Assembly (NCBI GenBank): GCA_016781505.1
Contig: JADDQF010000035.1
Location: 39,638-72,935 of the forward strand
Length of the DNA: 33,298 nucleotides
Direction: 5' to 3'
Source: a bacterium
GTDB taxonomy: Bacteria > Chloroflexota > Chloroflexia > Chloroflexales > Kallotenuaceae
Shown here: positions 29,181-33,060 of the stretch, in pieces
Position numbering within the stretch: the stretch's first letter is position 1
Layout: every line of letters starts with the position of its first letter
Notes under the pieces: generated by a model
Databases searched by the model: none
Told to the model about the DNA's origin: nothing
The model's input: the letters and a program-made list of their open reading frames with translations, nothing else
Position numbers and translations under genes: made by a program

Positions 29181-30710
29181 TTAGCGCATCATGGTCACGA
29201 CGCGATGCGCTTTGAGGGCAATTTGCAAGGCCAACACATCTTCCGGCCGCTTCAAGCTTAGCCCGCTGATCTCGGTGATCCGGCGGAGACGATAGATCAG
29301 CGTGTTGCGGTGAATATGGAGCAGATCGGCGGCATGGTGTAAATTGCCCAGCGCCGCAAAGTAGCCTTCGAGCGTATGCAGGAGCTCACCGCCATTGGCA
29401 CGGTCATGCTCCGTAAGAGCGCCCAGCGTTTGATGATAAAAGCTTTGCAGCTCGGAGGAGCTCCGGAGCTCCAGCAGCAGACGATACACGCCAAGATCGC
29501 TGAACGCGGTGAAGGTACCCTGGCCAAAGAGCTCACGCCCCAGCAGCAACGCTTGCTCCGCCTCATCATAAGCGCGCGACCATTGGGCGGCAGCGGTAGC
29601 CAACGTGCTCAAACCCGCATTCACTGCTGCCTCCTCAGTCAAGGCTTGCAACAACGCGTACGGCTGCGTCAGCTGCTCATCGCTGGGGCAGAAGCACACC
29701 AACGTTTCTTCGCGTACAAGAGTCGGCGCTGCCAGCTGCTGCCGGCCAAGCAAGCGGCGCAGCCATGTCTGAGCCTGCTCAAGAGTTGTCGCTTTGTCAA
29801 CCGGCGCGATCACCAGCGCCACATGCGGTCGTTGAAGATCATAGCCGAGCTCGGCAGCTTGCTGTTGTAGCGATACCGGATCGGTGACAGTACCGCTCAG
29901 AATGGTTCGAAGCACATTGCCGCGAATACGGGCTTCGGCGGCATGCACTGCTTGTTGTTTCGCCAGCTCCAGCGCCAGCGCGGCTACCGCCTGGGTAGCC
30001 GCCAGCTCATCCCAACGATCCAGCGTCGGCCCCGCCACCGCGACATAGCCTAGCCGCTGCGCAGGCTGACCGATTGGATACGTACGCACGACCACATCCA
30101 TCGCTTGCCCGGTTGGGCTGAGCGGTAGCTGAAGTCCGCTGAAGGCAGCGCGCAGGTGACGCGGCCCCCGTTGAATCCGTACTTCACCGTCGGCGTTAAG
30201 GTAGGCCACGGCACAGCCTGTCCGTTCTGCGGTTAGGCGCACAATGCCTTCAGCACCGTCGTCGGCTGCAACATGCTGGGTAAGCTCACTGTAGAGCTGC
30301 GCGGCGCGACGCTCAAGCTGCACATCCAGGTCGACGAGCAGCCGGTGAATCTCCCGCTCGACGCTGCGCAGATCGGTTTGATCGGGCAGCTGCAGCAGCG
30401 GCAAGTCCGTCACCTTCGCTACCGCCAACGCATCGTCGTCAACCGCACCAACAACCGCAATCGCCGCAACCGGAACCTCGGCCAGCCGACGCACGATTGT
30501 CGGCAAGGTCAGGCGCTCGTCCAACAGCCGAGCTTGCGCCACACTTATCAGCGCGATCTCGCCGCCGCGCAGCTGGGGAAACGCCGGCAGTGTCGCCCGT
30601 AAACTTACTGCATTGCTGATGTGTTGCAGTGATCCGTCTCCGGGAGTGAGCAGCTTGCTGCCAGGGGGAAGTGCGAGGCGCAGAAGATCACGAATTGTTG
30701 TAGTGCTCAT
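29181..30710 (-). CDS. PucR/CdaR-type transcriptional regulator
   Basis: A 509-residue regulator. The N-terminal domain (1-125) resembles the PucR sensor (I-R-D-L-L-R-L-A-L-P-P-G-S-K-L-L, G-E-I-A-L-I-S). A middle domain has GAF-like features (A-V-A-Y-L-N-A-D-G-E-V), followed by a GGDEF-like remnant typical of CdaR regulators. The C-terminal helix-turn-helix (about 450-505) is the family signature: H-T-L-E-G-Y-F-A-A-L-G-N-L-H-H-A-A-D-L-L, then H-R-N-T-L-I-Y-R-L-R-R-I. Members are usually activators of purine or sugar-acid catabolism. The ligand and targets here are unknown; a target may be its own operon. The ATG at 30710 lacks a good ribosome site. An extended -10 and an inverted repeat lie upstream. 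Confidence 0.93.
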   Translation of the reverse strand: MSTTTIRDLLRLALPPGSKLLTPGDGSLQHISNAVSLRATLPAFPQLRGGEIALISVAQARLLDERLTLPTIVRRLAEVPVAAIAVVGAVDDDALAVAKVTDLPLLQLPDQTDLRSVEREIHRLLVDLDVQLERRAAQLYSELTQHVAADDGAEGIVRLTAERTGCAVAYLNADGEVRIQRGPRHLRAAFSGLQLPLSPTGQAMDVVVRTYPIGQPAQRLGYVAVAGPTLDRWDELAATQAVAALALELAKQQAVHAAEARIRGNVLRTILSGTVTDPVSLQQQAAELGYDLQRPHVALVIAPVDKATTLEQAQTWLRRLLGRQQLAAPTLVREETLVCFCPSDEQLTQPYALLQALTEEAAVNAGLSTLATAAAQWSRAYDEAEQALLLGRELFGQGTFTAFSDLGVYRLLLELRSSSELQSFYHQTLGALTEHDRANGGELLHTLEGYFAALGNLHHAADLLHIHRNTLIYRLRRITEISGLSLKRPEDVLALQIALKAHRVVTMMR

Positions 30711-31100: not shown

Positions 31101-32261
31101 TCAGGCATGGGGGTGCAGGGACTGCGAATCAAGCGGCAAACACACGGTAAAAGTACTGCCGTGGCCTTCGGCGCTTTCCACTATGACCGTTCCACCGTGC
31201 AGTTCAACAATCTGCTTGACCACGTACAGGCCAATTCCCAATCCACTGATGTTTCGTGGATCCACATTCTCAGCGCGGTAAAACCGTTCGAAGAGCTGCG
31301 GGAGAGCTTCTGCCGGAATGCCAATCCCCTGATCGTGTACCGCAACACGAACTTGCAGCGCGTGTTGGCAAACCTCCAACACAATCGGCGCGCCACACCG
31401 ACTATACTTAAGCGCATTATGGAGCAGATTTTGCAAAACCTGCTCCAAGCGCAGCTCGTCACCTTGAATCACCGCCGACGGAATCATACACTCCGCCTTG
31501 ATCTCGCGCTCTGGCAGCGTTGGCTGCACCTCATCCACGATCCGCCGAACCAGCGCGCATACATCAACTGGCTGCCGTTCAATTTTCAGCTGGCCCGATT
31601 CTATGCGTGAAATATCCAGCAATACCCCAATCATTTTATTCAGCCGGTTCGTTTGCTCAATAATAACCTGGATCGTTTGCTGATCACGGCTACCCAGGGT
31701 ATTTTCTCGGATCACACGCCGCTGTAAAAGTTGAATATTACCCAAAATCGTGGTCAACGGGGTTTTAAGCTCGTGTGAAGCTAGTGACAAAAATTGATCG
31801 CGCAGTTGTAAGGCTTGCTCGGCCCTTCTGCGGGCAAGCTGTAGCTCGCGCTCATATTCTCGGCGTTCGGTGGCATTGAAAATCGTGATTCGGTTGAACA
31901 CGGGCGCGCCGCAGGCGTCGCGCTTTTGGATGGAACTGATCAAGACCGGCAGGCGCTTGCCGGTTTGACCAACCAGGTCGAAGGCAACTTCCTTAACAAA
32001 CCCCTGCATCCGCAGCAACGGAGCATAGTGTGTTTCATAAAAGATCTTGCCGCCCACGGTTAGCAAATCTTGAAATCGTTTGCTCCCGAGCAGATCTTTC
32101 CGCTGATACCCGACCCAGTCAAGAAAGGTCCGATTAACTTTGGCGAAGGTGCCGTCAGGAAGCGTTGAGATGTAGCCACATGGCGCATTCTCATACAGAT
32201 CTTCGAGGCTTTCCTGTAGCAGATCCTTATTGAGATGCCTTAACTCCATGTTTTTTACCAA
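31101..32261 (-). CDS. PAS-domain sensor histidine kinase
   Basis: A 386-residue soluble histidine kinase with no membrane segment. A PAS domain (about 18-135) contains V-N-R-T-F-L-D-W-V-G-Y and F-Y-E-T-H-Y-A-P-L-L-R-M-Q-G, a form also seen in PAS domains of PP2C regulators. The HisKA helix has S-L-A-S-H-E-L-K-T-P-L with phospho-acceptor His163. The ATPase has the N box (L-L-H-N-A-L-K-Y-S), D-Q-G-I-G-I-P and G-L-G-I-G-L-Y-V-V-K-Q. The start is probably TTG 32261, since AGGGG lies seven bases upstream; the ATG at 32249 is 19 bases away. It begins 10 bp after the RsbQ-like gene. No response regulator is in the window. Confidence 0.93.
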   Translation of the reverse strand: MVKNMELRHLNKDLLQESLEDLYENAPCGYISTLPDGTFAKVNRTFLDWVGYQRKDLLGSKRFQDLLTVGGKIFYETHYAPLLRMQGFVKEVAFDLVGQTGKRLPVLISSIQKRDACGAPVFNRITIFNATERREYERELQLARRRAEQALQLRDQFLSLASHELKTPLTTILGNIQLLQRRVIRENTLGSRDQQTIQVIIEQTNRLNKMIGVLLDISRIESGQLKIERQPVDVCALVRRIVDEVQPTLPEREIKAECMIPSAVIQGDELRLEQVLQNLLHNALKYSRCGAPIVLEVCQHALQVRVAVHDQGIGIPAEALPQLFERFYRAENVDPRNISGLGIGLYVVKQIVELHGGTVIVESAEGHGSTFTVCLPLDSQSLHPHA

Positions 32262-32271
32262 TGTTCAACCC

Positions 32272-33060
32272 CTACAGAAAGGCGCGCATGGCGGCAATCG
32301 TTTCGTCAGGGGCACTCAAATTCGGGCAATGTCCAGTTGCTTTCAGCAGCACAAACTGACTATCAGGCAAGGATTGGTGCATGTACCGCCCGACCGACTC
32401 CGGGGCGATCAGGTCTTCCGAGCACTGGAGGATCAGCGCCTTGGTTTGGAGCTTGGGTAAGTCCGACCGATTATCCGACAAAAAGGTCACGCGCGCGAAA
32501 TGTTTGGCGATCTCGGGATCTGTCCGGCAAAAGCTGTTGGTTAGCTCCTGGCCGAGCTCGGGACGATCTGCATTGCCCATGATCGCCGGTGCCATGGTGC
32601 TGGACCAACCCAGGTAGTTGCTATCCAGAAACTCCAGCAAGCCTTCGATGTCGGCTCGCTCAAAACCGCCGACGTAATCCACAGCATTGATATAGCGCGG
32701 CGAAGGACCGACAAGGACCAACCGCTCAAAGCGTTCGGGCTCTTCGATGGCTGCCAGGATGCCGATCATGGCGGAAACCGAATGCCCGACAAATGTTACC
32801 GCCATCAAATTCAGCTCTCGGCAAATTTCTAACACATCCTGCGCATAACCATCAAGCGTGCCGTATTTGGCGCGATCATACGCTCCCAGATCGGACTGCC
32901 CCGCCCCAACGTAGTCGAACATGATCACCTTGTAGTCTTGCTCGAATGCGGGTGCCACGAAACGCCACATGTGCTGGTCGCAGCCGAAGCCGTGGGCGAA
33001 CACCATGGGCTTTGCGCCTACGCCGGTAATCTTGACGTGATGTCGTTGCGAAATTGACAT
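32272..33060 (-). CDS. RsbQ-like alpha/beta hydrolase
   Basis: A 262-residue core alpha/beta hydrolase closely similar to Bacillus subtilis RsbQ, and related to KAI2/DAD2 plant receptors. Diagnostic runs are H-G-F-G-C-D-Q-H-M-W, F-D-Y-V-G-A-G-Q-S-D and T-L-D-G-Y-A-Q-D-V-L. The triad is Ser94 (G-H-S-V-S-A), Asp216 (C-S-E-D-L-I-A-P) and His244 (T-G-H-C-P-N), each within 3 residues of RsbQ numbering. In Bacillus, RsbQ is needed for the PAS-PP2C phosphatase RsbP to signal energy stress. Here the partner gene encodes a PAS histidine kinase. The ATG at 33060 has GGAG at 6 bases. It probably hydrolyses an unknown small molecule whose product or bound form is sensed by the PAS domain. Confidence 0.95.
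   Translation of the reverse strand: MSISQRHHVKITGVGAKPMVFAHGFGCDQHMWRFVAPAFEQDYKVIMFDYVGAGQSDLGAYDRAKYGTLDGYAQDVLEICRELNLMAVTFVGHSVSAMIGILAAIEEPERFERLVLVGPSPRYINAVDYVGGFERADIEGLLEFLDSNYLGWSSTMAPAIMGNADRPELGQELTNSFCRTDPEIAKHFARVTFLSDNRSDLPKLQTKALILQCSEDLIAPESVGRYMHQSLPDSQFVLLKATGHCPNLSAPDETIAAMRAFL

Follow-up and report, generated by a model that had tools for sequence, protein, structure and literature searches.

The RsbQ-PAS signalling class was described by Nadezhdin, Brody & Price (2011; PMC3183031), who looked for homologues of the RsbP PAS domain next to homologues of RsbQ and reported 45 such pairs. The outputs of the published pairs are a PPM phosphatase, a histidine kinase or a diguanylate cyclase, and nine class-specific PAS residues were named (PMC3183031). 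In B. subtilis, RsbQ makes direct contact with the PAS domain at its F-alpha helix, and the substitution F55A abolishes this contact (PMC3183031). The words Chloroflexi, Chloroflexus, Roseiflexus and Herpetosiphon are absent from the text of that paper. In the literature searched we found no joint mention of RsbQ and Chloroflexi and no experiment on a kinase-coupled RsbQ-PAS pair, the later papers that cite PMC3183031 being concerned with SigB or Bacillus.

The hydrolase and kinase genes

The window (the whole 33,298-nucleotide stretch of DNA analysed here) carries a hydrolase gene and, 10 bp downstream of it on the same minus strand, a kinase gene (Table 1). This pair is a further example of the class published in 2011, in a Chloroflexota bacterium, and we consider it highly likely that the two genes form an operon for a two-part sensor of the RsbQ-PAS type whose output is a histidine kinase.

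Table 1. Features of the hydrolase-kinase pair in the window. Residue counts refer to 67 aligned hydrolases, all of them linked to histidine kinases.
Feature	Position	Strand	Basis
RsbQ-type alpha/beta hydrolase	32272..33060	-	262 aa, ATG start; phmmer, Pfam Abhydrolase_1
Predicted catalytic Ser94 codon (GHSVS)	32779..32781	-	Aligned to RsbQ; S in 67/67
Predicted catalytic Asp216 codon	32413..32415	-	D in 67/67
Predicted catalytic His244 codon	32329..32331	-	H in 67/67
Soluble PAS-HisKA-HATPase histidine kinase	31101..32261	-	386 aa; Pfam, open frame
RsbP-type PAS domain	31839..32204	-	Residues ~20-141; class residues, tree grouping with B. subtilis RsbP
Predicted F-alpha helix segment, K72-P81	32019..32048	-	Alignment to RsbP and RsbP mutants in PMC3183031
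Helical PAS-HisKA linker, coiled-coil-like	31788..31877	-	Residues ~129-158; rough heptad count
HisKA dimerisation and phospho-acceptor domain, H163	31593..31802	-	PF00512, E 2.8e-17; H-box SHELKTPL
HATPase_c catalytic domain	31128..31463	-	PF02518, E 7.4e-30

When the hydrolase was used as a phmmer query, the nearest solved structure was B. subtilis RsbQ (1wom, E 1.9e-97). Olei00960 and the KAI2 and D14 receptors of plants came next (1e-61 to 1e-46), and no other hydrolase did better than 1e-14. The predicted triad of S94, D216 and H244 is complete. The RsbQ-type hydrolase is present as one copy in its own genome, with the next paralogue at 27%. The contig edge lies 238 bp upstream of the gene, leaving the promoter side out of view, and a scan for promoters and terminators returned matches no more than chance.

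The TTG start of the kinase at 32261 is uncertain, and an ATG lies four codons inward. Its PAS_9 match in Pfam (E 6.5e-7) and those of the HisKA and HATPase_c domains all scored above the cut-offs, and the kinase boxes are all intact (H163, N-box at 278, G1 at 310 and G2 at 340). PAS is the N-terminal domain and is joined to HisKA by a linker of ~25-30 residues, in which 70% of the a and d positions are hydrophobic in the best heptad register, a rough count that is suggestive only.

On our own reading of the consensus symbols in the figure legend of PMC3183031, the nine published class positions of RsbP-PAS are occupied in the window protein by residues that suit the class (C28, I31, L67, K72, F74, Y75, H78, E91 and P105), and P81 corresponds to P62, a further conserved residue of the class. 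By alignment, F74 and H78 would be the equivalents of RsbP F55 and Y59, the proposed site of RsbQ contact. The C-terminal DIT motif is absent from the domain, as it is from the class, and FNATERREYEREL stands in its place. Measured against an N-terminal RsbP sequence that we take to be the correct reference, and which matches all ten residue letters and numbers in PMC3183031, the window PAS domain is ~28% identical across 127 aligned residues.

An earlier note on this DNA had described an RsbQ homologue with a full triad and, 10 bp beyond it, a PAS-HisKA-HATPase kinase. The match to 1wom and the presence of the three residues bear out the first part of this description, and the open reading frame coordinates and Pfam agree with the second. 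The relation to KAI2/DAD2 drawn in the same note holds as homology of the hydrolase, in the phmmer range given above.

Pairing and PAS phylogeny across genomes

We compared 87 hydrolase loci, made up of 80 from GTDB species genomes (the closest hydrolases and no random sample), six from the same order and the window itself. An open reading frame with an RsbP-type PAS domain lies directly downstream of the hydrolase at every one of them, and the PAS homology starts between -19 and +86 bases from the hydrolase stop (87/87). The outputs comprise 69 histidine kinases, many of them hybrid (L083 and L086 are PAS-HK), 14 PPM phosphatases (L077 is PAS-PPM) and 2 GGDEF domains; one of the remaining two is cut by a contig end and the other is of unknown type. 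Both PAS and hydrolase are kept as an orthologous pair in two genomes of the same genus, and a third genome (86% complete) is without either. Statistics on gene overlap at the loci were set aside, as they vary with the start codon chosen.

The association also extends to genome content. When 60 relatives are ranked by their PAS match, the first seven places (own genome counted) are taken by exactly the seven genomes with RsbQ. The phylum was represented by 301 genomes. All six RsbQ genomes among them, in each of which the two genes are adjacent, reached a PAS match of E 4.4e-32 or better; none of the other 295 did (Fisher p 1e-12). Chance adjacency is excluded by this exact co-occurrence together with the unbroken pairing at the 87 loci.

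A maximum-likelihood tree was built from 43 RsbQ-linked PAS domains, including that of B. subtilis RsbP, with an outgroup of 17 PAS domains from loci of the same order that lack the hydrolase. All 43, the window domain included, fall on one side of a single branch opposite the outgroup, an arrangement seen in none of 500 shuffles. Support for this branch is moderate (77/72), and the split is present in 79% of bootstrap trees. Two genomes from another family of the order combine GGDEF outputs with a distinct PAS subtype.

A second clade of RsbP-like PAS domains (L114-L119; E 1e-23 to 1e-28) belongs to large proteins with many domains in a related family; of the outgroups found, it stands closest to the RsbQ-linked class, and there was no RsbQ in the flanks examined. 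Within the same order, a protein at L098:5933-6904 has an RsbQ-linked PAS domain and coiled coil joined to a C-terminal domain rich in cysteine (ICSICKNICDDQGYW...FSHSICPPC), which has no Pfam match and is an output outside the three published classes.

Divergence of sensor and transmitter

Pairwise distances at 43 non-redundant kinase-linked loci gave Spearman correlations of 0.77 for hydrolase and PAS, 0.37 for hydrolase and transmitter and 0.25 for PAS and transmitter; all three are inflated by common descent, and it is their differences that are informative. The comparison with Microvirga (Alphaproteobacteria) follows the same lines, with identities to the window of 74-77% for the hydrolase and 62-68% for the PAS domain, and of 28-30% for the transmitter. 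This combination of high sensor identity (76% and 66%) and low transmitter identity (~29%) indicates that the sensing pair has been joined to different transmitters. The window transmitter shares 61-67% with its same-genus relatives and up to 55% with kinases of its own genome. Quantitative support for the modularity of RsbQ-PAS is the addition made by the present analysis.

A much broader, though improbable, reading treats hydrolase plus PAS as a mobile receptor cassette. On this view it has passed between phyla and been fused to whatever kinases, phosphatases and cyclases were locally at hand, as well as to at least one undescribed output rich in cysteine, and every version would respond to a single conserved small molecule related to the ligand of KAI2. 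A hydrolase-PAS-kinase pair (L024) was also observed on a 1.39 Mb plasmid of Microvirga sp. VF16, and such a plasmid could be a vehicle for transfer.

Output, proposed working and known systems

The class residues, the PAS tree, the pairing and the correlated divergence together support the proposal of the earlier note that an RsbQ-PAS sensing module is placed here on a two-component output. The coupling itself is not the novelty that the note took it to be, because RsbQ-PAS-HK modules were published in 2011 (PMC3183031). Its suggested search for RsbQ-PAS-kinase neighbours in other genomes was productive, with histidine-kinase outputs at 69 of the 87 loci, and the opposing picture that it had sketched, of a PAS domain unrelated to RsbP and a pairing not conserved, is contradicted by the tree grouping and the pairing at all 87. 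The cognate response regulator, which it had also proposed to seek, was not found in the 19 kb around the orthologous pair in the same-genus relative G003, where no response regulator is encoded.

Clustering of all neighbouring open reading frames across the loci gave no third conserved gene; the third cluster consists of antisense frames over the hydrolase and the fourth is a LysR-type regulator at 6 loci. The own genome gives 97 matches to receiver domains, but among its six transmitters most similar to that of the window, only the one on C97 has a receiver less than 1 kb away. No SigB partner-switching genes are adjacent in the window or in G003.

Downstream of the window pair, on the same strand, lies a PucR-type regulator (29181-30710, minus strand). 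Its orthologue in G003 (L096:12372-13922) is likewise downstream and on the same strand, ~2.8 kb off, with DUF3618 and holin-X genes between. Genes of these two types are convergent to the kinase in two same-genus genomes (L096:9685-12022 and L097:91-2608), and the L097 cassette also has a DUF2382, YsnF-like gene; DUF3618, holin-X and DUF2382 genes are all absent between the window kinase and its PucR-type gene.

The hydrolase probably acts as a receptor and switches the kinase. By analogy with the genetics of RsbQ and RsbP in B. subtilis, a cytoplasmic small molecule would enter the hydrolase pocket and be bound or converted there. The hydrolase would then touch the F-alpha helix of the PAS dimer via F74 and H78, and the signal could travel through the linker helix and change how H163 is autophosphorylated, again as modelled on B. 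subtilis. The recipient of the phosphate would presumably be a response regulator whose gene lies in another part of the genome.

It is also quite possible, if somewhat doubtful, that the hydrolase is instead an enzyme making or delivering a ligand for the PAS domain, which would be the true sensor (Model 1 of Nadezhdin, Brody & Price, 2011), as against Model 2, in which the ligand is received by the hydrolase itself; both models were left open by those authors (PMC3183031). The triad, invariant in all 67 of the kinase-linked hydrolases, suits catalysis and ligand binding is frequent among PAS folds; however, the triad may persist for binding or for switching off, and PAS position 75, the haem site in some PAS domains, holds Tyr in the window protein and, in most others, Tyr, His or Phe, with no cofactor signature. 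The plant homologues KAI2 and D14, moreover, are receptors.

Less likely is that the pathway leads, as it does in Bacillus, to a general stress response, reached here by way of a response regulator encoded away from the pair. The DUF2382 (YsnF-like) gene adjoining the kinase in one same-genus relative and the DUF3618 and holin-X-like genes in two would fit such a role, as these types of family are often stress-induced, but these genes are absent beside the window kinase and are not common to other loci, and no partner-switching gene is adjacent. The authors of the 2011 study also doubt that the RsbQ-PAS module senses energy stress (PMC3183031). That the two genes share no more than a transcript, with an esterase of metabolism next to a kinase that answers an unrelated signal, would accord with an operon of two genes only, but is made extremely improbable by the exact genome co-occurrence, by divergence that is correlated for hydrolase and PAS in particular, and by the retention of the contact-helix residues.

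The pair is mainly valuable as a tractable system for the question of the ligand of RsbQ, a bacterial protein related to the receptors with which plants perceive karrikins and strigolactones. Kinase-coupled pairs offer a direct biochemical read-out in autophosphorylation, compared between presence and absence of hydrolase and candidate ligands, which is less simple in the Bacillus pathway, and the many swapped outputs are natural material for chimeras.

Like the published RsbQ-PAS-HK modules, the window locus has the hydrolase upstream, the PAS domain most N-terminal, the class residues, no DIT motif, a helical linker and HisKA/HATPase domains, and it differs in its host, a Chloroflexota bacterium. 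Its transmitter belongs to another kinase subgroup than that found with the close hydrolase relatives of Microvirga. With B. subtilis RsbQ-RsbP it shares a homologous hydrolase and PAS domain in the same operon order, but the output is a histidine kinase rather than a PPM phosphatase acting on RsbV, and SigB partner-switching genes are not adjacent. With plant KAI2, D14 and DAD2 it shares a homologous alpha/beta hydrolase and, as judged from the alignment, the same triad; the plant proteins act via F-box proteins and proteolysis, in contrast to the PAS domain or kinase of the bacterial pair.
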